From: Solirubrobacteraceae bacterium
GTDB lineage: Bacteria > Actinomycetota > Thermoleophilia > Solirubrobacterales > Solirubrobacteraceae
Reading direction: 5' to 3'
Length of the DNA: 33,715 nucleotides
NCBI GenBank assembly: GCA_024711025.1
Contig: JANJTP010000036.1
Location: forward strand, 1-33,715
A program made the position numbers and the translations under genes. The notes beneath the pieces were generated by a model that made no database searches, had not been told where the DNA came from, and saw only the letters and a list, made by a program, of their open reading frames with translations. The number at the start of each line of letters is the position of its first letter. Position 1 is the stretch's first letter. This document shows positions 7,317-26,186 of the stretch, one piece after another.

Positions 7317-8299
7317 TCGAGCTGCGCCGGGAGGTCAGCCCGGCGTGGCCCGTGCGCCTGCCGCGTGCCGGGCTCGACGGCGTGGCGCGCCGCCGCGGGC
7401 AGGTGTGGGAGCGACTGGTCCACGTGGACGGCGCCCCGGCCGTCGTGCGCGCGGCCCAGCGCGGCGGCGCGAGCGGCCCGGTGCTGCTCGCGGCGCGCGC
7501 CTCGAGCGCGGCCGTCGCCGAGGAGGCGATCGCGCGCGTGCGCTTCGCGCTGGCGCTCGACGACGATCTGCGCCCCTTCTACGAGGCCTTCCGCGACGAT
7601 CCGCTGATCGGTGCGTCCGTGCGCGCCCGCCCGGAGCTGCGCGTTCCGCGCCGCCCGGAGCCGTTCGAGGCGCTCGCGTGGGCGATCTGCGAGCAGCTCA
7701 TCGAGTTCCGCCGCGCCGCGGCGATCGAGCGCCGGCTCGTGCACGCGCACGGCCGGAGCTGCGCCGATACGGGACTGCGCGACGTGCCGAGTGCGGAGAG
7801 CCTCGCGGCGCTCGCGCCGGCGCGGCTCGAGGCCGCCGGGCTCAGCCCTTCGCGGGCGCTGGCGCTGCGGCGCGCGGCGGTCGAGGTCTCGACGGGGCGC
7901 GTCGACCTGCGCGCCGGCGACCAGGAGCGAGGCTGGGCGCGCCTGGCGAGGATCCCCGGCATCGGCCGCTGGACGATCGACGTCCTGGCGCTGCACGGCC
8001 AGGGCCGCTACGACCGCCTGCCGGCCGGCGACCTGGCATACCTCAAGCTCGTCGGGCGGCTGCTGCGTGGGCGCCCGAGCGCCCGCGCAGACGAGCAGGA
8101 GGTGCGTGAGCTGTTCGTCCCGTACGGGCGCTGGGCCGGCCTGGCGGGGGCGCACGCGCTGGGCGTGCCCGCCGGGCTGGGCAGCCTGCGCGCCGCCGGC
8201 TCGATCAGCCTGCGGTCGGCCCCGCGCCTGACGTCCCCACGCCCTCGCCCGGAAGGAACTCGTTCGTCGCCGCCTGCCCGACGTCGACGGGCCGCTTGA
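7313..8299 (+). CDS. AlkA-like HhH-GPD DNA-3-methyladenine glycosylase
   Basis: A base-excision-repair glycosylase of the HhH-GPD superfamily. The helix-hairpin-helix is at LARIPGIGRWTIDVLALHG, followed by RYDRLPAGDLAYLKLVGRLL, where the Asp of GDLAY matches the catalytic aspartate of AlkA. The N-terminal part (about 1-110) resembles the AlkA N-terminal sheet domain and PFEALAWAICEQLIEF is the family's central helix. GTG 7313 overlaps the upstream TGA. The last 32 residues (Arg/Pro/Ser-rich) run past the normal end of the fold and are encoded opposite the 3' end of thiY, a 95-bp convergent overlap. Confidence 0.85.
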   Translation: MIELRREVSPAWPVRLPRAGLDGVARRRGQVWERLVHVDGAPAVVRAAQRGGASGPVLLAARASSAAVAEEAIARVRFALALDDDLRPFYEAFRDDPLIGASVRARPELRVPRRPEPFEALAWAICEQLIEFRRAAAIERRLVHAHGRSCADTGLRDVPSAESLAALAPARLEAAGLSPSRALALRRAAVEVSTGRVDLRAGDQERGWARLARIPGIGRWTIDVLALHGQGRYDRLPAGDLAYLKLVGRLLRGRPSARADEQEVRELFVPYGRWAGLAGAHALGVPAGLGSLRAAGSISLRSAPRLTSPRPRPEGTRSSPPARRRRAA

Positions 8300-9335
8300 T
8301 CAGGCTCGAGCGCAGCATCCAGTCGGCGTAGTCCTCCCACTGGCGCAGGTCCTGGAAGCCGAACGGGCGCTGCGCGTCGGACGGGAGCAGCACCGGCAGC
8401 GTCGCGCGAACGCTCGCCTCGGTGAACCGGCGGCCGAGGTCCGGCTCCGCCGCGAGCAGCGCGTCGACGCCGACCTTCGGGGTCTCTCGCGCGGTCGCGG
8501 TTCCGCGCTGCAGCGCCTGCACGAAGCGGCGGATCAGCGCGCCTCGATGCTGGATCGTGTCGGCGCGGGCGACGAGCACGAGCTCGTCGTACGTCGGGAC
8601 GCCCGCCTCGTCGACCGGCAGGATCCGCGGGCGGCGGTCGTCGAGCTTCAGCTGCACGCCCTCCACGTTCCAGAACGCTCCGAGCGTCGCGTCGACGCGG
8701 CCGGAGAGCATCGCCGGGACGAGGTTGAAGCCTACGTTGACCTTTGTGACCGACTTCGGGTCGACGCCGGCGCCGTCGAGGATCTCCTGGAGGTAGGCGT
8801 CCTGGTAGGGGATCCCGGCGGTGCCGATCCGCTTGCCCGCCAGGTCCTTGGGCTCGACGGGACGGCCCTTGACGGACATGAGCGAGGTGAGCGGGCGCTG
8901 CGCGAGCGCCGCGACGCTGAGCACCCTCGCGCCCTTGTCCCGTGCGAGGAGGACCTCCGGCTCGTACGAGATCGCCAGGTCGGCGCGCCCGGCCGCGACC
9001 AGCTTCAGCGGCGCCGCGGGGTCGCTCGGCGTGCGGATCGTCACGTCGAGGCCGGCCTTCTCGAATTCGCCGGTCGCCTGCGCGGTGTAGATCCCGACGT
9101 GGTCGGGGTTCGGGAGGTAGTCGAGGACGAGGGTCAGCTTGCGCGGCTGCGCCTGGCCGCTCTGCTCGGGCTTGCCGGCGCAGGCCGTGAGCGTGCCGGC
9201 GGCGAGCGCGAGCGTCGCGAGCGCCGCGAGCAGGCGGGAGAGCCCGAGCCGGGCGGCTCGGCGCGGTCGCCGTGCGGGCGCGGGGCCGGCGCTCCGTGCG
9301 GGCGCGGACCGGGGGTGGCGGGGGAGGTCGGTCAT
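8205..9335 (-). CDS. thiY: Thiamine-precursor (HMP-type) ABC substrate-binding lipoprotein
   Basis: A 376-residue NMT1/THI5-like periplasmic binding protein. A basic N-terminus precedes the hydrophobic LLAALATLALAAGTLTAC, a lipoprotein signal with lipobox LTAC. The mature part begins KLTLVLDYLPNPDHVGIYTAQATGEF, the family's typical first strand and helix, followed by GRADLAISYEPEVLLAR and RIGTAGIPYQDAYLQEIL. It should capture a thiamine pyrimidine precursor (hydroxymethylpyrimidine or N-formyl derivative) for the adjacent permease. The substrate class is supported by the TPP riboswitch at the head of this operon. ATG 9335 overlaps the permease stop (ATGA). Its 3' end overlaps the glycosylase gene. 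Confidence 0.88.
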   Translation of the reverse strand: MTDLPRHPRSAPARSAGPAPARRPRRAARLGLSRLLAALATLALAAGTLTACAGKPEQSGQAQPRKLTLVLDYLPNPDHVGIYTAQATGEFEKAGLDVTIRTPSDPAAPLKLVAAGRADLAISYEPEVLLARDKGARVLSVAALAQRPLTSLMSVKGRPVEPKDLAGKRIGTAGIPYQDAYLQEILDGAGVDPKSVTKVNVGFNLVPAMLSGRVDATLGAFWNVEGVQLKLDDRRPRILPVDEAGVPTYDELVLVARADTIQHRGALIRRFVQALQRGTATARETPKVGVDALLAAEPDLGRRFTEASVRATLPVLLPSDAQRPFGFQDLRQWEDYADWMLRSSLIKRPVDVGQAATNEFLPGEGVGTSGAGPTAG

Positions 9336-10084
9336 CGTCGGGTGCTCCAGTCGGGGTCTCGGTGGGCCCAGGGCACGAGCAGACGCTCGGCGAGGGAGAG
9401 GAGGGTGAAGAGCAGAACCGCGAACGCCGCGAGCAGCGCGGCGGCGGCGTAGGCGCGGGCTGTCTCGAGCTGGGGGATCGCCTGCAGGATCACGTTCCCG
9501 AGTCCTTCGCTCGAGCCCGCGTACTCGGCGAAGACGGCGCCGATCACGGCGACCGCGACGGCGATCTTCGCGCCGGAGAGCGCGCCCGGCAGTGCCGCCG
9601 GCAGCTCGACCCAGCGCAGCTCCTGCAGTCTGGTCGCGTCGAGCGTGCGCAGCAGCTTGCGCTGCTCGGGGTCGACGGCGGCGAGCGCGTCGAGCGTCGT
9701 CACGACGACGGGGAAGAAGCAGATCAGCGTGATGATCGCGAGCTTCGGCGCGATGCCGAAGCCGAGCCAGACGATCAGCAGCGGCGCGACGATCACGATC
9801 GGCACGGCCTGCGAGCCGACGAGCAGCGGGTAGAGCGCGCGGCGCAGCGGCGGGCTGAGGTGGATCGCCAATGCGAGCGCTGCCCCGGCCAGCAGCGCCG
9901 CCACGATCCCCAGGCCGACCTCCTGCGCGGTCACGAGCAGGTTGTCGGCGAGCAGGCCGCGATCGTCCCACAGCGCCGCTCCGACCTCGCTCGGCGCCGG
10001 CAGGACGAGGTCGTCGACGGACCCGAGGCGCGCGTACGCCTCCCAGGCACCGAGCAGCGCGATGACGATGAGCGCGGCGATCAT
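9332..10084 (-). CDS. thiX: Thiamine-precursor ABC transporter permease
   Basis: 250 residues with about six hydrophobic segments and the BPD_transp_1 layout of SsuC/ThiX-type permeases. The EAA-like loop that docks the ATPase is around TLDALAAVDPEQRKLLRTLDATRLQELRWVELPAALPGALSGAKIAVAVAVIGAVFAEY. LPAPSEVGAALWD near the N-terminus is typical of this class. The chosen ATG makes a short N-terminus and overlaps the TGA of a 20-codon micro-ORF lying between it and thiZ. It belongs to the riboswitch-controlled operon. Confidence 0.88.
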   Translation of the reverse strand: MIAALIVIALLGAWEAYARLGSVDDLVLPAPSEVGAALWDDRGLLADNLLVTAQEVGLGIVAALLAGAALALAIHLSPPLRRALYPLLVGSQAVPIVIVAPLLIVWLGFGIAPKLAIITLICFFPVVVTTLDALAAVDPEQRKLLRTLDATRLQELRWVELPAALPGALSGAKIAVAVAVIGAVFAEYAGSSEGLGNVILQAIPQLETARAYAAAALLAAFAVLLFTLLSLAERLLVPWAHRDPDWSTRR

Positions 10085-10151
10085 GCGCGCAGTGCGCTTT
10101 GCGCCTGTTGGCCGGTGAGCAGAGGCTGGACGTCGGCGATCATGCGCGCAG
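10075..10151. repeat. 18-bp direct repeat spanning the thiZ-thiX junction
   Basis: CGGCGATCATGCGCGCAG occurs at 10075-10092 and again at 10134-10151, a 59-bp period. Read on the minus strand each copy encodes the same end-and-restart: codons for Leu-Arg-Ala, TGA, with an ATG overlapping that stop. Because 59 is one short of 60, the duplication preserves ATGA coupling at both junctions. Confidence 0.8.
10081..10143 (-). CDS. 20-codon micro-ORF linking thiZ and thiX
   Basis: An ATG overlaps the thiZ stop (ATGA) and opens a frame encoding MIADVQPLLTGQQAQSALRA; its TGA overlaps the ATG of thiX. It has no Shine-Dalgarno of its own and no recognisable family. It may be a coupling peptide that lets ribosomes pass from thiZ to thiX, or simply the product of a 59-bp duplication of the stop/start junction. 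A frameshifted N-terminus of thiX is the other reading, since the micro-ORF joined to thiX would give a plausible longer permease start. Confidence 0.35.
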   Translation of the reverse strand: MIADVQPLLTGQQAQSALRA

Positions 10152-10919
10152 CGCCTCCAGCGCGCGCTCGCGGATCGCGAGCGTCGCGGGGTCGGTGGCG
10201 CTGCGCGGCCGCGGCAGCGGCACCTCGATCGTCGCCCTCACACGAGCCGGGCGGGCCGACAGCACGACGATCCGGTCGGCGAGGATCGCCGCCTCCTCGA
10301 CGTCGTGCGTGACGAGCAGCGTCGTGCGCGGCTCGCGGGCGAGAGCCGAGGCGAGCCAGTCGCGCATCTCGGCCCGGGTCAGCGCGTCGAGCGCCCCGAA
10401 CGGCTCGTCGAGGCACAGCACCGGCTTGCCGGAGAGCAGCGTGCGCAGGAACGCGACCCGCTGGCGCATCCCGCCGGAGAGCTCATAGGGGCGCGAGCGC
10501 TCGAAGCCGCCGAGGCCGAACGCCGCGAACAGGGGGTGGGCCTGCGCTCGCGCCCGGACGCGCGGTGCGTGGCGCAGTCGCGCGGGCAGCGCGGCGTTGT
10601 CGAGCGCGTCGAGCCACGGCAGCAGCAGGTCGCGCTGCGCCATCAGCACGGCGGGGGCGCCCTCGAGCGTCCCGCCGTCCGGCTCGCGCAGCCCGCAGAC
10701 GACCTCGAGCAGGGTCGTCTTGCCGCACCCGGACGGGCCGACGAGCGCGACGAGCTCGCCCGGGGCGGCGCTCAGTGAGACGTCCTCGACGGCGAGCAGC
10801 GCACGCCCGCCACGTCGGCGCGGCGGGTACGACACGCGCACCGCGTCCAATCGCACTGCGTCCGGCCGGGTCGCGCCCGGCTGCCGCGGCGCCGACGGCA
10901 TCCCGAGGCTGCTTGTCAT
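10140..10919 (-). CDS. thiZ: Thiamine-precursor ABC transporter ATP-binding protein
   Basis: 259 residues with all ABC ATPase motifs: Walker A GPSGCGKTT, Q-loop near LMAQRDLLLPW, signature LSGGMRQRV, Walker B VLCLDEP, D-loop GALD and switch histidine in LVTHD. ATG 10919 is chosen over the ATG at 10937. The earlier ATG lies inside the conserved TPP-riboswitch core, while GGAGGGA (10929-10923), 3 nt from 10919, is the ribosome binding site and also the 3' strand of riboswitch stem P1. It powers import of a thiamine precursor with thiX and thiY. Confidence 0.9.
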   Translation of the reverse strand: MTSSLGMPSAPRQPGATRPDAVRLDAVRVSYPPRRRGGRALLAVEDVSLSAAPGELVALVGPSGCGKTTLLEVVCGLREPDGGTLEGAPAVLMAQRDLLLPWLDALDNAALPARLRHAPRVRARAQAHPLFAAFGLGGFERSRPYELSGGMRQRVAFLRTLLSGKPVLCLDEPFGALDALTRAEMRDWLASALAREPRTTLLVTHDVEEAAILADRIVVLSARPARVRATIEVPLPRPRSATDPATLAIRERALEALRA

Positions 10920-11013
10920 CGCTCCCTCCGCGGGCATTACCCCACAGGTTCAACGGGTCCGCGCCGGATCTGGACGCGATCTCAGCCGGCCTCCGCCAGC
11001 TCCCCGGGTGAGT
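10920..11013 (-). promoter_or_regulatory. TPP riboswitch (THI element)
   Basis: Read on the minus strand the conserved order is present: CCCGGGGAGC (near 11008), the stem CTGGC/GCCGG, CTGAGA (10985-10980), GACCC then TTGAACCTG (10953-10945), GGGTAATGCC (10943-10934) and GCGGAGGGAGC at the end. CTGAGA, GAACCTG and the TAATGCC-GCG-AGGGA block are the TPP-binding core. The final AGGGAG both closes stem P1 and serves as the ribosome binding site of thiZ, so ligand binding should block translation directly. It gives strong functional evidence for the thiZXY assignment. Confidence 0.96.
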
Positions 11014-15724: not shown

Positions 15725-17188
15725 TCAACCCCGTGCCGCGTCCGGCTGAGTGAGCGCCTTGACGAACTCCTCGAGGTGGGCGGCCGTCCAGCACTCGAAC
15801 GCCTCGCAGTGCTGCTCGTAGGCCGCGATCACGCTGTCGCCGTAGTTCCAGTAGAGCCGCGGCTCGGGGTTGAGCCAGTACGTCCGGCCGGCCTTGGCGG
15901 CGATCTGGCCGAAGACGTCGGCGGCGGGGTCGCGGCCGTTGGTGCGCGCGTCGCCGAGCACGATGAGCGTCGCGCGCGGATGCAGCTCGTCCTCGATCAG
16001 GTTTCGCAGCTCGCGCCAGACGCGGCCGTAGTCGGTGTAGCCGGAGACGTCGGCGACCCCGGCGTTGCGGCCGATCGCCTCGCTGACCGCCTTGAAGTCG
16101 CGCTCCTGCTCGAACAGCTCGGTGACCTCGCTGATCCGCTCGATGAAGACGAACGAGCGCATCTTGCGGAACGAGTCGTGCAGTGCGTGGAGCACCGAGA
16201 GGAAGAACACGGAGGCGCTCGTGACCGATGTCGAGACGTCGCACACGACGAAGATCTCCGGCCGGCGCGGCCGGGTCGGGCGGTACTTGAGGACGACCGG
16301 CACGCCGCCGGTCTCCAACGAGGCGCGCATCGTCCGCCGCACGTCGACGTGGGCGTGGCGCTTGTGTCCACGGCGCTCGGCGCCCTGTGTCTTGAGTCGC
16401 CGCTTGAGCTGCCGGGTGACGCGGTGCACGCTCGCGAGGTCGGCGAGCGGGCTGCTCGGCAGCGCGCGATCCAGCTCGTTCAGCGGCCGTGCCGGCGGGA
16501 GCTGCTCGGTGCGCTGGATCTGGCGCCGCTCGAGCTCCTCGCGCAGGAGCTGCTCGAAGCGGCGCAGCCCGTCGCGCGGCAGGCCGTCGCGCCGCGGGTC
16601 GCCGTCGGCGAGCTGCGGCTGCGGATCGGTGCGCAGGCCGAGCTGACGGCGGATCCGCTGCACGTCGACGCCGATCACGCCCGAGCCCTCGGCGTGCCGG
16701 CCGAAAGCCGCGATCGCCAGGCGAGCGAGATCGCGCAGCGCCGCCTCGTCGCCGGCGGCGATCATCCGCGCGATCTGCTCGCGCAGCGTCTCGGGGTCGA
16801 GCTCGCCTTCGGCCTCGCCCGGCGCGCCGGCCGCCCCGGCGTCGCGCACGCCCTCCCGTACGGCCGCGATCTCGGCGGCCCGGAAGAAGAACCGGTCGAA
16901 GACGAGGTCGAAGACGCGCCGGTCGTCCGGCGACTTCGCGAGCGTGGTGGCGAGCGTCTCACGGAACGCCGTCGGCTCCGTCCAGGCGATCTCGCCGAGC
17001 GCGCCGAACGCGTCGAGCAGCTCGCTCGTGCCGACGGCGACGCCCTCGCCGCGCAGCTCCTCACCGAACTGGACGATCTGCGCGGCGAGGGTCTGCGGCA
17101 AGGCGTCCGCGCCGTCCCCGCCGAAGAGCGCGGCGCTGCGCGAGGACCGCGGACGGCGCTCGGCCGGCCTACTCCCTCGCTCCGGCAC
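15725..17188 (-). CDS. CoxE-like VWA-domain protein
   Basis: A 487-residue protein of the VWA/CoxE family, partner of MoxR-type ATPases in metallo-cofactor insertion or protein-complex remodelling. The N-terminal half is helical (LPQTLAAQIVQFGEELRGEGVAVGTSELLDAF; FDLVFDRFFFR). The VWA domain starts near residue 311 with the MIDAS motif DVSTS (Asp317, Ser319, Ser321), followed by the TDYG and GDARTN loops. GTG 17188 has GAGGAGG 6 nt upstream and lies 20 nt inside the ATPase gene, so the two are coupled. Residues 270-290 (ERRGHKRHAHVDVRRTMRASLETGG) are the conserved basic stretch before the VWA. No CO-dehydrogenase genes are nearby, so the client is unknown. Confidence 0.88.
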   Translation of the reverse strand: MPERGSRPAERRPRSSRSAALFGGDGADALPQTLAAQIVQFGEELRGEGVAVGTSELLDAFGALGEIAWTEPTAFRETLATTLAKSPDDRRVFDLVFDRFFFRAAEIAAVREGVRDAGAAGAPGEAEGELDPETLREQIARMIAAGDEAALRDLARLAIAAFGRHAEGSGVIGVDVQRIRRQLGLRTDPQPQLADGDPRRDGLPRDGLRRFEQLLREELERRQIQRTEQLPPARPLNELDRALPSSPLADLASVHRVTRQLKRRLKTQGAERRGHKRHAHVDVRRTMRASLETGGVPVVLKYRPTRPRRPEIFVVCDVSTSVTSASVFFLSVLHALHDSFRKMRSFVFIERISEVTELFEQERDFKAVSEAIGRNAGVADVSGYTDYGRVWRELRNLIEDELHPRATLIVLGDARTNGRDPAADVFGQIAAKAGRTYWLNPEPRLYWNYGDSVIAAYEQHCEAFECWTAAHLEEFVKALTQPDAARG

Positions 17189-18074
17189 CGAGCGCCTCCT
17201 CGGGCGCGGCGAGCTTGACGCCGACGCGCTCGGCGACGAGGTCGAGGTCGGTCCGGTGCTTGACGATGATCGACATCGTCCGGCGGAAGGTCTCGGCGTC
17301 GATGTCCCGAGCGCCGAGCAGCAGCAGGGCACGAGCCCAGTCGATCGACTCGGCGATCGACGGCGGCTTCTTCAGGTCGAGCTCGCGGACCATCGCGACG
17401 ACCTCGACGAGGCGGCGCGCGATCCGCTCGTCGAGCTCGGGGGTGTGGAGGCGCACGATCGCCAGCTCGTGCTCGGGGCCGGGGTAGTCGATCCACAGGT
17501 ACAGACAGCGGCGCTTGAGCGCCTCCGTCAGCTCGCGCGTGTTGTTCGAGGTCAGCAGCACGACCGGCATCGTGCGCGCCTCGATGCGGCCGAGCTCCGG
17601 GATCGTGATCTGGAAGTCCGACAGCAGCTCGAGCAGCATCGCCTCGAACTCCTGGTCGGTCTTGTCGATCTCGTCGATCAGCAGGACGACCGGCCGCTCG
17701 CTGCGGATCGCCGCGAGCAGCGGACGCTCGAGCAGGAACTCCGCGCCGAAGATGTCGTCCTGGACCTCCTGCCAGCCGGCGCCCTCGCCCTCGGCCTGGA
17801 TGCGCAGGAGCTGCTTGCGGTAGTTCCACTCGTAGAGCGCCTTGGCCTCGTCGAGCCCCTCGTAGCACTGCAGGCGCACGAGGTCGCGGCCGAGCGTCTC
17901 GGCGAGCGACTTGGCGAGCTGGGTCTTGCCGACCCCGGCCGGGCCCTCGACGAGGACGGGCTTGCCGAGCCGCGCGGCGAGGAAGGCGACGAGCGCCGCC
18001 GCCTCGTCGGCCAGGTAGCCGACGGAGCGCAGGCCCTCCTCCAGGTCGTCGACGGAAGCGGGCAGGTCATTCAT
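17169..18074 (-). CDS. MoxR-family AAA+ ATPase
   Basis: 301 residues with Walker A GPAGVGKT (44-51), Walker B VVLLIDEID (129-137), sensor 1 in VLLTSNNTREL and the arginine-finger region LKRRCLYLW. The sequence YEGLDEAKALYEWNYRKQLL is typical of the CoxD/MoxR branch. It acts as a chaperone-like remodeller with the VWA protein encoded next. ATG 18074 is chosen because TATGAT (18088-18083) stands 8 nt before it (leaderless layout); a GTG one codon upstream is also possible. Probably the first gene of a two-gene operon. Confidence 0.92.
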   Translation of the reverse strand: MNDLPASVDDLEEGLRSVGYLADEAAALVAFLAARLGKPVLVEGPAGVGKTQLAKSLAETLGRDLVRLQCYEGLDEAKALYEWNYRKQLLRIQAEGEGAGWQEVQDDIFGAEFLLERPLLAAIRSERPVVLLIDEIDKTDQEFEAMLLELLSDFQITIPELGRIEARTMPVVLLTSNNTRELTEALKRRCLYLWIDYPGPEHELAIVRLHTPELDERIARRLVEVVAMVRELDLKKPPSIAESIDWARALLLLGARDIDAETFRRTMSIIVKHRTDLDLVAERVGVKLAAPEEALGAGARE

Positions 18075-18082
18075 CACTGCGG

Positions 18083-19653: not shown

Positions 19654-20376
19654 TCACGGCTCTCCGAAGACGTCACGCAGCACCTCGTTGAACTCGAGCA
19701 GCGTCCGCCGGCCATCGCCGACGTACGTCGAGCCGTGCATCGCGGCCAGGGTTTGCGGCTCGAGCTCCGCGAGCGCTTGCATCACCGCGTCCGTCCGCGC
19801 GGTGTAGGGAATGTAGTCGGCGAGCGCGCCGGCCTCGTACTCGAGCAGTGACGCGCGCGCCCGCTCGATGACGTCGTCGCCGGTCACCGCCGGCACGTCG
19901 CCGTTCTGGTGCAACAGGTCGGAGCACAGCAGGGTCCGGTCGCACTCCTCGAACAGCAGTCCCGCGTCCCATCCGTGCGGGAGCTGCGGCGTACGGCGGA
20001 AGCTGAAGCGGTGCGTCCCGGTGACGAGCAGCTCGCCGTCGTCCATCCCGCGTGCTCGGCCGGTGACGAAGTCTGCGTTGACCTGCGCGCCGAGTCGGCT
20101 GCACACGGGCACAGCGTGCGGGGCGACCTTCAGCCACTCACCGAGCGCGCCGCATTCGTCGGCCTCCACGTGGCTGAACCCGATCCAGCGGATCGTCGCC
20201 GGATCGAGGATGCGGGTGACCGCGTCCCGTACCTCGCCCCAGAACGCCCTCGTCCCGGTGTGATAGAGCAGCGGCTCCTCGTCGCGGACCACGAAGTGGT
20301 TGAACTGCAGGTCGATCTCCGGGACGAAGACCGAGATCCGGAAGATGTCCGGGGCAATCTCCGTCGTGCTGGCCAT
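19654..20376 (-). CDS. Stand-alone flavodiiron-type metallo-beta-lactamase protein
   Basis: 240 residues with the MBL fold of flavodiiron proteins (oxygen-binding diiron domain). All six expected diiron ligands are present: His69, Glu71 and Asp73 in SHVEADE, His134 in LPHGWDAG, Asp153 in LLCSDLLH and His214 in AAMHGST. The HxExD motif, rather than HxHxDH, marks the ODP/flavodiiron branch. The flavodoxin domain that supplies FMN in classical O2/NO reductases is absent, so an electron donor or a different role (O2 sensing, hydrolysis) must be supposed. ATG 20376 follows GAGGAG. It belongs to a cluster with a TrmB regulator and two other MBL proteins. Confidence 0.8.
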   Translation of the reverse strand: MASTTEIAPDIFRISVFVPEIDLQFNHFVVRDEEPLLYHTGTRAFWGEVRDAVTRILDPATIRWIGFSHVEADECGALGEWLKVAPHAVPVCSRLGAQVNADFVTGRARGMDDGELLVTGTHRFSFRRTPQLPHGWDAGLLFEECDRTLLCSDLLHQNGDVPAVTGDDVIERARASLLEYEAGALADYIPYTARTDAVMQALAELEPQTLAAMHGSTYVGDGRRTLLEFNEVLRDVFGEP

Positions 20377-20582: not shown

Positions 20583-21446
20583 TCAGCTCGACGGGAGCCG
20601 CGGCTCGGGCCGTGCTCGCTCCGTGCCGGCGAGCTCGTTCGCCTGGCGCCACTGCCGGTTGAACAGCAGCTGGAAGGGGGCGGCGAGCTCCGGGTGGTGG
20701 ACCGAGACGCTGGTCGCCACGAACTCGCCGTCGGTGGTGTCGACGAGCGAGACGACGGCCTCGGCGCCGTCGTCGCGGACGATCATCTTCAGCGGGACGT
20801 TGCTGGAGGTGCGCACCTCGGCGCCGCCGTCGAGCAGCGGTCGGTAGCGCTCCGAGTCGTCGACGAGCTCGGCGCCGTATATGACGCGGATGCCGACGCC
20901 GCGCTCCAGCGCGCGCAGCTCGCTGTTGTGCCACTCCGAGCGCGGCTGGATCACCGGTGTGGTGACCACGATGTCGAGCCGGTTCTCGGCTCGCTCGACG
21001 ATGTCGACGAGCATCTGGAGCGTCGCGTCACGGCCAACCTTGGCGTGCATGTACCGGGCATCGAGGGCGTCATCCTCGACGCCGCGCGGAAGCGCCTTGA
21101 GAAGGCCGCCCACGAGCCGCTCGTCGCGCTGCGTCGACATCCTGCGCTCGTGCTCGCGCCGGCGGGCCCACTCGGGAAGCGCGACGTCGGGGCTGACCGG
21201 ATGGAAGCGTGCGACCCGGTCGCCGCGCACGAAGCAGAACCCGCGCTGCTCCAGCGCCTTGAGCGCCTCGTAGACCTTCGGGCGTGCGATGCCGGCGGCG
21301 TCGGCGATCTCGGCCGCCGTGGCCGGCGCCAGTCGCAGGAGCGCCGCATAGGCGCGCGCCTCCTTGGACGTCAGGCCGATGTCGACGAGCGCGCGAACGA
21401 TGCCGTCGCCCGTCTCTGCCCGCTTGCCTCCGTTGCCTTCGCGCAC
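20583..21446 (-). CDS. TrmB-family transcriptional regulator
   Basis: 287 residues. Residues 20-85 form a winged helix of the TrmB type: LVDIGLTSKEARAYAALLRLAPATAAEIADAAGIARPKVYEALKALEQRGFCFV, with the recognition helix at ARPKVYEAL. The remaining 200 residues match the TrmB effector domain (phospholipase-D-like fold; VEDDALDARYMHAKVGRDATLQMLVDIVERAENRLDIVVTTP), which binds sugars in archaeal members. GTG 21446 lies 6 nt after TAGCCT, so it is probably leaderless. It is divergent, by 64 bp, from the MBL pair and most likely regulates that module. Confidence 0.85.
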   Translation of the reverse strand: MREGNGGKRAETGDGIVRALVDIGLTSKEARAYAALLRLAPATAAEIADAAGIARPKVYEALKALEQRGFCFVRGDRVARFHPVSPDVALPEWARRREHERRMSTQRDERLVGGLLKALPRGVEDDALDARYMHAKVGRDATLQMLVDIVERAENRLDIVVTTPVIQPRSEWHNSELRALERGVGIRVIYGAELVDDSERYRPLLDGGAEVRTSSNVPLKMIVRDDGAEAVVSLVDTTDGEFVATSVSVHHPELAAPFQLLFNRQWRQANELAGTERARPEPRLPSS

Positions 21447-21510: not shown

Positions 21511-22416
21511 ATGAGCGACGCGTGCCACCGGGGGATCTTCACGATTTCGGGCGATCTGCCCGCCCTCGAGTTCCCCCCGACGATCGACTACGAGCCGCTG
21601 CGCGGGCGTATCTGGACCGCCGCGGACGGGACCTACCGGACGATCTTCCTCGAGGGTGACCACGGGGTCGTCTGCTTCGACACCTTCTACTCGCCGGGGG
21701 CCGCGCGCTCCTACCGCGGGGCGGTCCATCGACTCTTCCCGGACAAGCCCGTCCACACCATCGTCTACTCGCACGATCACCTCGACCACACCGGCTACGC
21801 GCTGGATCTCGCAGCCGACGCCAACGTGATCGCCCACCGCGACTGCGCGGAGGTCGTCGCGCTGCGTGCGTCCGACGGGCAGAAGCCCGCCGACGAGGTC
21901 TGGGATGGCGAGCGCCGGACGTTCGAGATCGACGGCGTGGCCTTCGAGCTCGTGAACCCCGGGCCGACCCACGGCACCGGCAACGTGGCGGCGCACTTCC
22001 CCGACGTCGGCATTCTGTTCATGGTCGACACCGTCATCCCGGGCGTCGGCTACACCTTCTTCCCCGACTGGCATCTGGCCAGCTACGTCAAGACGATGCG
22101 CCGGCTGGAGTCGCTGGAGTGGGACCTCTTCGTCCCCGGGCACTTCTGGCCGGTCGACAGGGCCGGGTTCCGGGAGAACCTCGACTACTACGAGTTCATC
22201 GCCGACGCGGCGCAGCGGGCGCTCGTCGAGGAGGTCGACCCGGACGACTACCCGCAGATCCGGGCGTACGCCGAGGACCGCTACCGCGACAGCCACGGCC
22301 GGACGTTCCGGTTCGGCGAGTACTTCCCGATGAACCTGATGCGCGCGATGGCGCACTTCCGCACGGGCGGATGGGGCCTCGAGGACAACACAGGCGTGCC
22401 GGCGGGCACGCTGTAG
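21511..22416 (+). CDS. Metallo-beta-lactamase-fold hydrolase (intact metal site)
   Basis: 301 residues. The metal ligands are complete: HDHLDH (His88, His90, Asp92, His93), His154 in GPTHGTGN, Asp173 in FMVDTV and His211 in VPGHFWP, giving a dinuclear Zn/Fe site. N-terminal CHRGIFTISGDLP and C-terminal FRTGGWGLEDNTG are shared with the next gene and mark a distinct subfamily whose substrate I cannot name. ATG 21511 is chosen over the in-frame GTG/ATG at 21481 because TACAAT sits 6 nt before it. It forms an operon with its paralog (21-bp gap, AAGGAG box for the second gene). Confidence 0.85.
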   Translation: MSDACHRGIFTISGDLPALEFPPTIDYEPLRGRIWTAADGTYRTIFLEGDHGVVCFDTFYSPGAARSYRGAVHRLFPDKPVHTIVYSHDHLDHTGYALDLAADANVIAHRDCAEVVALRASDGQKPADEVWDGERRTFEIDGVAFELVNPGPTHGTGNVAAHFPDVGILFMVDTVIPGVGYTFFPDWHLASYVKTMRRLESLEWDLFVPGHFWPVDRAGFRENLDYYEFIADAAQRALVEEVDPDDYPQIRAYAEDRYRDSHGRTFRFGEYFPMNLMRAMAHFRTGGWGLEDNTGVPAGTL

Positions 22417-22437
22417 ACCGGCAGTGAAGGAGAAGAG

Positions 22438-23349
22438 ATGAGCGGCTTTCACCGCGGCCTGTTCACCATCGACGTCGCCGACCACCAGCGGCACGAGCCC
22501 GACCTCGAGGTGGAGTCCGTGGGCGACGGCGTCTGGACCGTCTCGGACGGCGACCATCGCACGATCTTCGCCGGCGGCCACGACGGCGTGGTCGCGTTCA
22601 ACACGTTCGGCACGCCCGGGGCGGCGCGCGCCTACCGGCGGGCGATCGAGCGCACAGTGCCCGGCGCGAGGATCGGCACGGTGGTCTGCACCATCGACCA
22701 CCTCGACCACGCCGGTTACGCCGCCGACCTCGCCCCAGACGCGGCGCGCGTGGGTCACGAGCTGACTGCGACCGTGATCGAGGGCCGCCGTTCCGATGGG
22801 CAGCTCCCGTTGACCCGGGTCGTCCGCGGTGGCGGAGAGGATCTCGAGCTCGACGGCGTCCGGATGAGGCTCCGCTACCCGGGACCGACGGTGGGCACCG
22901 GGAACCTCGCCGTCCACCTGCCCGACCAGCGCCTGCTCTTCATGGTCGGCCCTCGCGCCGACGCCCGCTACGGCCTCTTCTCGGACTTCCACCTGCGCCA
23001 CTACGCCGGCAACGTTCGGTCCCTGCTCGACATGGAGATCGATCGCTTCGTCCCCGGCCGCTCCCGGACGATGTCGGTCCACGAGGCGGCGTGCGCCTGC
23101 GACTACGTGGAGGCCGTCCAGGAGGCCAGCCAGCGCGCGTTCGCCGGGGGCGTGCCGATATGGGAGTACGAGCCGATGGAGCGTTACGTCGCCGAGGCCC
23201 TGCGCGAGGACTTCGGATCGCTCGAGGGCTTCGAGCGGCACATCGGCATCGGCGCGCTGCGCGTCGTGCACCACTACCTGACGGGTGGCTGGGGGCTCGA
23301 GGACACGACCGGGCCCGAGCGGCTGGCGGCGTCGGCCGGGCGCGCCTGA
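22438..23349 (+). CDS. MBL-fold paralog with degenerate metal site
   Basis: 303 residues, clearly paralogous to the gene before it (FHRGLFTI, HRTIFAGGHDGVVAFNTFGTPGAARAYRRAI, LTGGWGLEDTTG). Metal ligands are largely lost: His88 becomes Ile86 (TIDHLDH), His154 becomes Val152 (GPTVGTGN), Asp173 becomes Gly171 (FMVGPR) and His211 becomes Arg208 (VPGRSR); only the DH-type half (His88, Asp90, His91) remains. The frame is open and codon use normal, so it is not a pseudogene but probably a pseudoenzyme, perhaps the non-catalytic subunit of a heterodimer with its neighbour. Its Shine-Dalgarno AAGGAG is ideal. Confidence 0.8.
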   Translation: MSGFHRGLFTIDVADHQRHEPDLEVESVGDGVWTVSDGDHRTIFAGGHDGVVAFNTFGTPGAARAYRRAIERTVPGARIGTVVCTIDHLDHAGYAADLAPDAARVGHELTATVIEGRRSDGQLPLTRVVRGGGEDLELDGVRMRLRYPGPTVGTGNLAVHLPDQRLLFMVGPRADARYGLFSDFHLRHYAGNVRSLLDMEIDRFVPGRSRTMSVHEAACACDYVEAVQEASQRAFAGGVPIWEYEPMERYVAEALREDFGSLEGFERHIGIGALRVVHHYLTGGWGLEDTTGPERLAASAGRA

Positions 23350-23382: not shown

Positions 23383-24216
23383 TCAGACCTTGACCGCGAA
23401 CCGGCCAAGGCCCTTGACGGCGATCAGACGGATGATCCGGTCGAAGACGAAGCCCAGGATCCCCAGGGCGATGATCCCCACGAAGACCCACTCGGTGCGC
23501 CCGTAGTTGCGCGAGGTCCAGATCAGCGCGCCCAGGCCCTCCCGCGCCGCGACGATCTCGGCGGAGACGATCGTCAGGAACGAGTTGCCCATCGCCAGCC
23601 GCGCGCCGGTGACCATGTAGGGAACGGTCGCGGGAATCACCACCTCGACCATCGTTCGCAGCTTGCCCGCTCCCAGCGCCGCCGCGGCCCGCAGCTTGAG
23701 CTCGTCGACGGCGAGCACGCCCGCCATCGTGCTGATCGTGACCAGGAAGACCGTGGTGTAGAAGATCAGCACGACCTTCGATGCCTCGCCCACCCCCAGC
23801 CAGATGACGGCGAGGGTGACGAATGCGATCGGCGGGATGAAGCGGAAGAACTCGATGTAGGGATCGAGCAGGCGCCGCACGATCGTGATCCGGCCCATGA
23901 GCAGTCCCACCGGGATGCCGACGACCAGGCCGAGACCCCAGCCGATGAGGATGCGGCGGGCCGACGCCACAGTCGAGGTGAGCAGCGTCCCGTCCTTTGC
24001 GAGCTCGCGCGTCGCGGTCCACGTCTCGGCCGGGGACGGCAGGAAGTTGACGCTGTACCGCATGCTGAGCAGTTGCCAGGCGAGCAGGCCGAACGCCAGC
24101 GAGAGGACGAACATCCCGATGGCACGCCACGGCACGCGCATCCGCCACCACGCTCGCCGGGTGGTGATGGTCGTCAGGGCCCCCGAGATGTCCTGGCCCT
24201 GCTGGTATCCGCTCAT
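23383..24216 (-). CDS. NitT/TauT-type ABC transporter permease
   Basis: 277 residues with a cytoplasmic N-terminus and six membrane segments starting at about residue 33. The class motif LPSPAETWTATRELAKDG follows TM1 and the ATPase-docking loop is GVLAVDELKLRAAAALGAGKLRTMVEVVIPATVPYMVTGARLAMGNSFLTIVSAEIVAA. It should import a small organic anion or related compound (nitrate, sulfonate, riboflavin and aromatic acids are all known for the class). It is the last gene of a three-gene operon and converges on the MBL pair with a 33-bp gap. Confidence 0.88.
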   Translation of the reverse strand: MSGYQQGQDISGALTTITTRRAWWRMRVPWRAIGMFVLSLAFGLLAWQLLSMRYSVNFLPSPAETWTATRELAKDGTLLTSTVASARRILIGWGLGLVVGIPVGLLMGRITIVRRLLDPYIEFFRFIPPIAFVTLAVIWLGVGEASKVVLIFYTTVFLVTISTMAGVLAVDELKLRAAAALGAGKLRTMVEVVIPATVPYMVTGARLAMGNSFLTIVSAEIVAAREGLGALIWTSRNYGRTEWVFVGIIALGILGFVFDRIIRLIAVKGLGRFAVKV

Positions 24217-24226
24217 TTGCCCCTCC

Positions 24227-25087
24227 TCACTCCAGGCCCTGCGCGCGCAGGGTCTTGGAGACCTCGATCCCGATGTCCTGCCGGATGCGCCGGTGAAGCT
24301 CGATGGCGCCCACGTCGGTCTCGTCGCGCGGGCGCGGAAGCTCGACGGGATACACGGCCTTGATCTGCGCGGCCGGGCCGGCCGTCATGGTCACGATGCG
24401 GTCGGCGAGCAGGATGGCCTCGTTGAGGTCGTGGGTGACGAAGAGGATCGTCGCGCCCGCGTCACGCCAGATGCGCTCGATCTCGCGTTGCATGACCTCG
24501 CGCGTCTGTGCGTCCAGCGCGCCGAACGGCTCGTCCATCAGCACCACGGACGGCTCGTTGGCCAGGACGCGCGCGATCTGAACGCGCTGGCGCATCCCCC
24601 CCGACAGCTCGTCGGGGAAGCGCTCGGCCGAGTGCGCCAGCCCGACGAGCTCGAGGTGGCGATCGGTCAGCTCGCGGACCTGCGCTCGGTCGAGGCCGCG
24701 CATTCGCGGCCCGAATGCCACGTTCTGCCGCACGCGCAGCCAGGGGAACAGCGACTCGCTGCTCTGGAAGACCACGCCGCGGGAGACGCTCGGGCCGCGC
24801 ACGCGGGCATCGCCGACGAGCACGTCGCCCATGGCAGGCTGGACGAACCCGGCGACCGCGTTGAGCAGCGTCGACTTCCCGCACCCGCTGGGACCGAGGA
24901 GGCAGACGAACTCACCGGGCGCGATGTCGAGCGCCGCGCTCTCGACTGCGACGAAGGACCCGAAGTGGATCGACACGTCGCGTATCGAGATCGGCTCCCC
25001 CCGCCGCGGCGCGCCCGCTCGATGCGGGCGCGCCGAAGGCGAGGCGGGCTGGTTCGCGGTGGAGTGCACGCGCGAAGGACCTGTCAC
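24227..25087 (-). CDS. NitT/TauT-type ABC transporter ATP-binding protein
   Basis: 286 residues with Walker A GPSGCGKST, Q-loop in VVFQSSESLFPWL, signature LSGGMRQRV, Walker B VVLMDEP, D-loop GALD and switch His in FVTHD. GTG 25087 is taken because it overlaps the stop of the binding-protein gene (GTGA); GTG 25069, six codons later, is equally possible and neither has a strong ribosome binding site. The first 30 residues are Ser/Pro/Arg-rich linker before ISIRDVSIHFGSFVAVESAALDI. Confidence 0.88.
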   Translation of the reverse strand: MTGPSRVHSTANQPASPSARPHRAGAPRRGEPISIRDVSIHFGSFVAVESAALDIAPGEFVCLLGPSGCGKSTLLNAVAGFVQPAMGDVLVGDARVRGPSVSRGVVFQSSESLFPWLRVRQNVAFGPRMRGLDRAQVRELTDRHLELVGLAHSAERFPDELSGGMRQRVQIARVLANEPSVVLMDEPFGALDAQTREVMQREIERIWRDAGATILFVTHDLNEAILLADRIVTMTAGPAAQIKAVYPVELPRPRDETDVGAIELHRRIRQDIGIEVSKTLRAQGLE

Positions 25088-26058
25088 GAGCCGGAGGAGC
25101 TCGGCCGCACGATCAGGTCGTCGAGCGATGGCTTCTCCTTGATGACCTTGCGCGCCGCCAGGTAGTCGACGATCGCCTGGAAGCTCTCGCGATCCTTGTC
25201 CGTGAAGTCGCGGACCTGGAAGTCGATCTCGCCGATCGCGCTCTCGGTCAGAGGCTCGGGCAGCTTCGCGGCCTTTGCCGCCGCCTTCGCCGCAGCCGCC
25301 GGGTCCTGCTCGGTGAGCTTCGTTGCGGCGTCCATCACGCGCCGGAGCGCCGCGGCCTCCTGCGGGTGGCCCTTCAGCCACTCGTCCTTGGCGGCGATCG
25401 TGAGCACCGTTCCCAGCCCGTATTCGCGGGTGGGGTAGAGGATCTTCCCGCCGGACTCCTCGCCGCGCGTCGTCCACGGCGGCCAGATGACGTAGCCGTC
25501 GATGTCGCCCTTCTCGAGGAGCGGCGGCAGCTCCGGCGGGCCGGCGGGCACGAACTTGACGCTCGAGGGATCGATGTTCGCGCTCTCGAGCAGCTTCGCC
25601 GCCGCGTACTCGCTGTACGTGCCGGGGACGATGCCGATCTTCTTCATCTCCTCCGGGCCGGATATGCCCTTGCCCGCGACGACCTTCACGTAGTCGCCCG
25701 GATCCTCGGCGAAGATCTCCATCGCCGCGAGGTTCGCGCGTGGCGCGCGGGCGAGCAGGTTGTAGTCCGGCACGCCCGCAACGTCGGCGCTGCCCGCGAT
25801 CAGCGCGTCCGCCGCCTCTCCCGCGTTGGCGTATTGCTGAACGTCGACCTGTAGACCCTCCTTCTCGAAGAGGCCCTCTTCCAGCGCCACGAAGATCGGC
25901 GTGAACACCGGGTCCACGCCGACGGCGAGCGCAAAGGGCTTGCTTGCGGAGGCGGCACTGTCGCCGCCTCCCCCACCATTACCACCACTGTCGTCGCCTC
26001 CGCAGCCGGCGAACACGGCCGCGACGACGGCGACGACAAGCATTGCTCGGAAAGGCAC
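25084..26058 (-). CDS. NitT/TauT-type substrate-binding lipoprotein
   Basis: 324 residues. VPFRAMLVVAVVAAVFAGC is a lipoprotein signal with lipobox FAGC, followed by a Gly/Ser/Asp linker. The binding domain starts PFALAVGVDPVFTPIFVALEEGLFEKEGLQVDVQQYANAGEAADALIAGSADVAGVPDYNLLAR, the SsuA/NMT1-like pattern, then KKIGIVPGTYSEYAAAKLLES. GTG 26058 is chosen for its AAGGAGG box 6 nt upstream and because it begins the signal peptide cleanly. PPWTTRGEESGGKILYPT should line the pocket. The ligand is unknown; the cluster's enzymes suggest a small organic compound. It heads the importer operon. Confidence 0.88.
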   Translation of the reverse strand: MPFRAMLVVAVVAAVFAGCGGDDSGGNGGGGGDSAASASKPFALAVGVDPVFTPIFVALEEGLFEKEGLQVDVQQYANAGEAADALIAGSADVAGVPDYNLLARAPRANLAAMEIFAEDPGDYVKVVAGKGISGPEEMKKIGIVPGTYSEYAAAKLLESANIDPSSVKFVPAGPPELPPLLEKGDIDGYVIWPPWTTRGEESGGKILYPTREYGLGTVLTIAAKDEWLKGHPQEAAALRRVMDAATKLTEQDPAAAAKAAAKAAKLPEPLTESAIGEIDFQVRDFTDKDRESFQAIVDYLAARKVIKEKPSLDDLIVRPSSSGS

Positions 26059-26157
26059 TGACGTCCTCCTTGCTCCGTCTCTCCACACCCTCGCCCCGTT
26101 GTCGGAGCGGCGGCTCTGACTCACGTCCCGAAAACCGTCCCTCCAGACGGGAGGTAC

Positions 26158-26186
26158 ATTCTCGACCAAATTTGATCAGATGTCAA
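26158..26186 (-). promoter_or_regulatory. Sigma70-type promoter with operator for the ABC importer
   Basis: Minus strand: TTGACA (26186-26181), 17-nt spacer, GAGAAT (26163-26158). The spacer is filled by the 16-bp palindromic element CGACCAAATTTGATCA read on the plus strand (26163-26178; arms agree at 6 of 8 positions), a classic repressor position. It contains ATTTGATCA, also found at 20452-20463. The transcript would carry a leader of about 90 nt with a CCGTC/GACGG hairpin at 26135-26150. Confidence 0.7.

Follow-up and report, generated by a model that had tools for sequence, protein, structure and literature searches.

A tandem pair of metallo-β-lactamase-fold genes

We analyzed a 33,715-nucleotide stretch of DNA from a Solirubrobacteraceae bacterium (the window in its entirety), whose genome assembly consists of 72 contigs. 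Two adjacent genes, termed A and B, lie in the same reading frame of the forward strand and are separated by a TAG stop codon (22414-22416) and 21 nt (Table 1). Their products share 42% identity across 291 residues (E 1e-67). In A, the ligand set of a metallo-β-lactamase (MBL) metal site is complete (H88, H90, D92, H93, H154, D173, H211). The residues of B aligned to these positions are I86, H88, D90, H91, V152, G171 and R208, and hence four of the seven ligands are replaced. A first-pass annotation of the window had named the same four losses, and its numbering is exact by our A/B alignment. It had also described frame, length and C-terminal motif as kept in B, and indeed the reading frame is open, the lengths are 303 aa in B versus 301 aa in A, and the C-terminal motif TGGWGLED is common to both.

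Table 1. Genes and sequence features at the A/B locus of the window; the intervals of genes A and B run from the ATG to the end of the stop codon.
Feature	Position	Strand	Basis
TrmB-type regulator, divergently oriented 64 nt from A; may regulate the pair	20583-21446	-	PF01978, 64.5 bits
Gene A, MBL-fold hydrolase with intact active site, 301 aa, C-terminal helical extension (helices 217-285)	21511-22416	+	PF00753, 45.9 bits (cut-off 22.7); AlphaFold2 model
A, metal motif HDHLDH (H88, H90, D92, H93)	21772-21789	+	Alignment of copies
A, ligand H154	21970-21972	+	Alignment of copies
A, bridging ligand D173	22027-22029	+	Alignment of copies
A, H211, the last ligand (all B copies have Arg)	22141-22143	+	Alignment of copies
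A, R267 of the C-terminal helical part, replaced by Gly in B (B codon 23227-23229)	22309-22311	+	Fixed A/B difference
A-B intergenic gap, 21 nt, with ribosome-binding site GAAGGAGAAGAG	22417-22437	+	ORF coordinates
Gene B, MBL-fold paralog of A with degraded metal site, 303 aa	22438-23349	+	Alignment to A; model fold match Z 25
B, IDHLDH: I86 in place of the first His; H88, D90, H91 retained	22693-22710	+	Alignment to A
B, V152 in place of ligand His	22891-22893	+	Alignment to A
B, G171 in place of bridging Asp	22948-22950	+	Alignment to A
B, R208 where A has its last His; 28/28 B copies have Arg	23059-23061	+	Alignment of copies
NMT1/SsuA-type ABC transporter, convergent with B; candidate substrate importer	23383-26169	-	Profile matches
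Transporter permease	23383-24216	-	
Transporter ATPase (within)	24227-25477	-	
Transporter binding protein	25084-26169	-	
FAD oxidoreductase (CrtO/phytoene-desaturase-like); similar ORF adjoins the pair in L023	26277-27851	+	Profile matches

Gene A matches the Pfam Lactamase_B model above its cut-off of 22.7 bits; the window's B scores 19.0 bits against the MBL model and thus falls below it, and 23 of 25 B orthologs have a Pfam MBL match at E<=0.01. The B half of our structural model (see below) superposes on solved MBL structures with Z ~25 (rmsd 1.9, 209 residues), and we therefore conclude that the window's B has retained the MBL fold. A complete HxHxDH + His + Asp + His site is present in all 27 readable copies of A and absent from B, where the proteobacterial copies lack the last His only. 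A and B are thus a pair of MBL-superfamily proteins. Several more specific assignments were rejected. The pair scores 25.4 bits against the class B β-lactamase core model and 27.7 bits against the subclass B1 model, for which the NCBIfam curated cut-offs are 100 and 200. It does not belong to the SdsA1 alkylsulfatase family, whose members have ~650 aa, and only Lactamase_B-type and ODP Pfam models match. Pfam models for β-CASP domains and RNA metabolism gave no match to either protein, excluding an MBL/β-CASP nuclease, and PADLOC returned no defence-system match for A or B. The window contains a third MBL-fold gene (19654-20376, reverse strand) of the ODP family (PF19583), in whose motif HVEADEC the His expected after the Asp is missing.

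Distribution and divergence of the pair

We searched ~85,000 species genomes with a two-motif scan and found 27 relatives of the pair in Actinomycetota, Gammaproteobacteria/Proteobacteria and Poribacteria. Three are actinobacterial (L014, L023, L035), one is a Poribacteria MAG, and the others are Gammaproteobacteria or Proteobacteria that their titles place no further. All 27 have A followed by B on one strand, although in L039 a contig edge cuts A and leaves its tail visible. The A-B gap is mostly between -11 and +21 nt; in L014 and L035 the two genes overlap by 4 nt. Neither an orphan A nor an orphan B was seen among these relatives, and an additional pair is present in genome G1221 (L088), from the same family as L024. 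The tandem arrangement that the first-pass annotation had proposed to look for is therefore found throughout, but the four-ligand loss expected to accompany it is not a family rule, as the last ligand alone is missing from most B copies. We also looked for relatives in which B is absent or broken, the result that the first-pass annotation had named as refuting its reading, and it was not obtained: none is without B, and B evolves under purifying selection, with dN/dS values of 0.03-0.20 (0.03-0.10 for A) in close proteobacterial pairs, to which the estimate applies rather than to the window's own B, which has no close enough relative.

The pair is rare within lineages. It is absent from all 16 same-genus genomes searched, and in a sample of the window's class only two other genomes (G617, G549) carry it at E<=1e-20; vertical inheritance within the genus is not supported. 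It is likewise no Nocardia-wide trait (1 of 150 genomes), and plasmid matches are MBLs of only 25-31% identity that do not form a pair, speaking against plasmid carriage. Rarity within lineages together with spread across phyla suggests that the pair moves horizontally as one unit.

In a maximum likelihood tree all A sequences fall on one side and all B sequences on the other side of a branch with 100/92 support, which indicates one duplication before the spread. The distances among A and among B proteins are correlated (r 0.91, 27 loci; none of 10,000 shuffles was equally high), and the correlation is 0.78 within the proteobacterial/Poribacteria set. By descent the pair thus falls into the enzyme-pseudoenzyme class, with a single duplication, catalytic residues kept in A and lost in B, and co-inheritance of the two genes, full loss of the site being confined to the actinobacterial branch.

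The loss of metal ligands in B is graded. All 28 B copies have Arg at the last-ligand column (211), and in 24 of the 28 loci this is the sole loss, leaving B with six of seven ligands (the L019 copy is partly masked). Accordingly, gammaproteobacterial B retains H88, H90, D92, H93, H154 and D173. Actinobacterial B (four copies) has additionally lost H88, H154 and D173, and these three are the only columns replaced in all four among 50 columns conserved in A and in proteobacterial B. The chance that three columns picked from 50 would all fall into the six ligand columns is 20/19600, or ~0.001; this shared-column count is the only strong signal, as a Fisher test for excess ligand loss in single B sequences is weak (p 0.017-0.46). 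The L023 B differs in its losses (H88N, H93R, H154S, D173E) and groups with proteobacterial B, which points to a second independent loss. Two independent losses of the actinobacterial B site are thus suggested by their better fit to the tree, in which a single actinobacterial clade was not rejected (AU p 0.20). Because only one of the seven ligands is missing from B in 24 of 28 loci, the term pseudoenzyme used in the first-pass annotation is safe for the actinobacterial branch only. A and B are separated by just two fixed differences, H211R and R267G: the C-terminal helical part has lost an Arg and the metal site has gained one, and the two changes may represent a reciprocal arginine exchange.

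In two Candidatus Thiodiazotropha species gene A contains an in-frame TAA (L024:8370-8372 and L026:8370-8372) next to an intact B, which counts against the heterodimer proposed below. The same gene is open in G1221 of the same family. The TAA separates the two halves of the MBL fold, and the sequence on both sides of it is under strong purifying selection (dN/dS 0.026 at dS 0.26), which would not be expected if the gene were decaying. The stop may be read through, or the protein may be split.

Genomic context and coenzyme F420

We compared the gene content of pair-bearing genomes with that of controls. An F420 ligase gene is found in 24 of 28 pair-bearing genomes, including 21 of the 23 proteobacterial ones, versus 10 of 184 other genomes from the class of L024 (Gammaproteobacteria), a contrast that is inflated by host relatedness and clear in direction. 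None of these 10 ligase-positive control genomes contains the pair, ruling out that F420 implies the pair. The pair clearly tracks F420, and the converse does not hold. CofD (PF01933) was dropped as an F420 marker because it also matches in E. coli and other controls. In the window's own genome the F420 ligase is encoded on a separate contig. F420 biosynthesis genes (CofC/D/E, FbiC-type radical SAM) are located upstream of A in both Thiodiazotropha loci (L024, L026) and in L034 and L037. They also occur near the pair in L029, providing a lead to the role of F420 in Gammaproteobacteria, where the cofactor is uncommon (10/184). The pair marks F420-linked gene sets in this class, and a 2021 review lists the reason why newly found producers such as Proteobacteria make F420 as an open question (PMC8498797).

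In L014, L025, L029 and L033, genes for luciferase-like oxidoreductases adjoin the pair or lie close to it; in L033 the pair also has a molybdenum hydroxylase gene next to it, with a related ORF in L025. Other recurring neighbors are acyl-CoA dehydrogenase, M24 peptidase, ketopantoate-reductase-like and MFS genes. A conserved protein of ~190 aa is encoded directly 3' of B in L026 (9854-10420), L037 (9834-10433) and L039 (1150-1806); the copy in L026 matches no Pfam model at 1e-3, and the protein could possibly be a third component. Elsewhere in the window, the reverse strand encodes a CoxE-like VWA protein (15725-17332) and a MoxR-type AAA ATPase (17169-18077), a combination of the type that acts in molybdenum hydroxylase maturation. 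A second NMT1-type binding protein (8205-9971) and ABC ATPase (10140-10937), also on the reverse strand, bring the number of similar importers on the contig to two.

Predicted A-B assembly and its relation to known MBL proteins

We modeled A and B as one chain by reading the window's TAG as Gln, a purely computational device that fuses the proteins through an eight-residue natural linker. The AlphaFold2 input alignment contained the window's A-B chain and 37 relatives positioned on the correct halves. The resulting model has a pTM of 0.89 and a mean pLDDT of 88, with low confidence in the linker and two tips, and a gammaproteobacterial pair whose B has six of seven ligands (L038) gave a pTM of 0.81. 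A and B each terminate in a helical extension, part of which recurs in full-length matches such as chlorothalonil dehalogenase, PDB 8D2Z and SdsA1. By the definition of pTM, a value of ~0.9 for two ~300-residue halves needs their confident mutual placement, with ~0.5 expected otherwise; the models thus imply a defined A-B interface, as read from the pTM of a fused chain with a short linker that may itself favor contact. The interface prediction proposed in the first-pass annotation hence returned a confident placement in both models. Its obligate heterodimer is backed by co-conservation and by this predicted interface, and, with these two as its basis, is not fully supported.

Taken together, we consider it probable that A and B form a heterodimeric MBL-fold hydrolase in an F420-linked catabolic pathway, with A as the catalytic and B as a structural or allosteric subunit. 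Here the interface is predicted, and we infer the division of labor, the metal content and the substrate class. A would carry a working dinuclear-type metal site and supply catalysis. B would be a diverged copy that has been retained to complete the dimer, providing stability, a substrate channel or allosteric gating. Its site would first have been changed by the fixed His-to-Arg substitution at the last ligand and then dismantled in Actinomycetota. The heterodimer may hydrolyze a small organic molecule, probably imported (or F420-processed), as part of catabolic gene sets that employ coenzyme F420 together with luciferase-like oxidoreductases. As the model for B we took chlorothalonil dehalogenase, whose subunits form a head-to-tail homodimer with a Y-shaped substrate channel that opens at their interface and is common to both sites (PMC12784990). 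By analogy, B may contribute half of a shared channel or gate.

The main rival, which we regard as unlikely, is that A and B are separate proteins of one pathway that share an operon and form no obligate complex. B would then be a second enzyme with a mononuclear site and Arg for the last His or, in Actinomycetota, a binding or sensor protein. The six ligands kept by gammaproteobacterial B would be consistent with an activity of its own, and an incomplete ligand set is enough for certain MBL-fold enzymes, among them chlorothalonil dehalogenase (PMC12784990). However, actinobacterial B has lost most of its remaining ligands yet stays beside an intact A, the two genes are never apart in the loci found, and both models place A and B confidently. 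Clearly less probable still is B as a regulatory decoy, where A would work as a homodimer that B modulates through mixed dimers or ligand sensing. Chlorothalonil dehalogenase, a close solved relative, is a dimer, and the C-terminal helical part common to A and B could swap partners, but the strict 1:1 tandem order and short gaps suggest stoichiometric rather than modulatory expression, and no locus has A alone. That B is a decaying, functionless duplicate in the window's genome is very improbable: four of seven ligands are lost, actinobacterial B is the fastest evolving group with long branches in the tree, and the window's B scores below the Pfam cut-off, but its frame is open, third-position GC is 0.93 (0.95 in A) with a similar codon-position pattern, the predicted fold has a pLDDT mostly >90, D183, H185 and the C-terminal GGW are strictly kept in B, and the purifying selection in relatives, together with the open frames and this conservation, led us to reject a pseudogene.

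A fuller version of the heterodimer reading, to which we would give an even chance, is that of an ancient, horizontally spread MBL hydrolase in which a ligand of B was replaced by Arg and the change became fixed, with a reciprocal Arg-to-Gly change at another position; in one phylum B would then have lost its full site while still being required by A. Such a pair would be a bacterial record of a stepwise enzyme-to-pseudoenzyme transition in an undescribed F420-dependent catabolic pathway. Our searches of open-access papers gave no bacterial example of an MBL enzyme paired with a pseudoenzyme, and the newness claimed in the first-pass annotation thus holds against those papers, not against all literature.

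We compared the pair to other MBL proteins. Chlorothalonil dehalogenase (PDB 6UXU) and PDB 8D2Z, at 15-20% identity, rank with the closest folds over the full length, and the similarity extends into part of the C-terminal helices. Dimers of the dehalogenase type have a structural Zn at a head-to-tail interface, and the resemblance of A/B to them is one of fold. In contrast to A/B, chlorothalonil dehalogenase is a homodimer without a paralogous inactive partner and has a mononuclear catalytic site, where each monomer has a single catalytic Zn coordinated by Asp116, His117, His257 and Asn216 (PMC12784990). The best PDB sequence matches are the alkylsulfatases SdsA1/PisA1 (E 5e-7 for A, 5e-6 for B), mostly over the N-terminal metal region, and SdsA1 is also one of the nearest solved folds at full length; these are proteins of ~630-660 aa, whereas A and B have ~300 aa and match neither the alkylsulfatase dimerization nor the C-terminal domain. 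The long form of tRNase Z (ELAC2 type) arose by tandem MBL duplication, and one half keeps the active site while the other binds substrate (PMC5646807). It resembles A/B in its duplicated MBL with one site kept, but is a single eukaryotic polypeptide acting in tRNA processing. Heterodimerization with an inactive partner has been described for CPSF73/CPSF100 and INTS11/INTS9 and is tied to activity for the latter (PMC4819959). Like A/B, these pairs combine an active MBL subunit with a paralog that has no metal site, but they are eukaryotic RNA nucleases with β-CASP domains in large complexes, whereas A and B are small, operon-encoded bacterial proteins, putative hydrolases in a small-molecule context. 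A and B have no β-CASP match, and together with their different context this places them outside that group. Inactive MBL partners are thus already known from eukaryotic RNA-processing nucleases; A/B, if our reading is true, would be a bacterial small-molecule pair with living intermediates, from one ligand lost to most lost, in which the transition from enzyme to pseudoenzyme is testable with two soluble 300-residue proteins.
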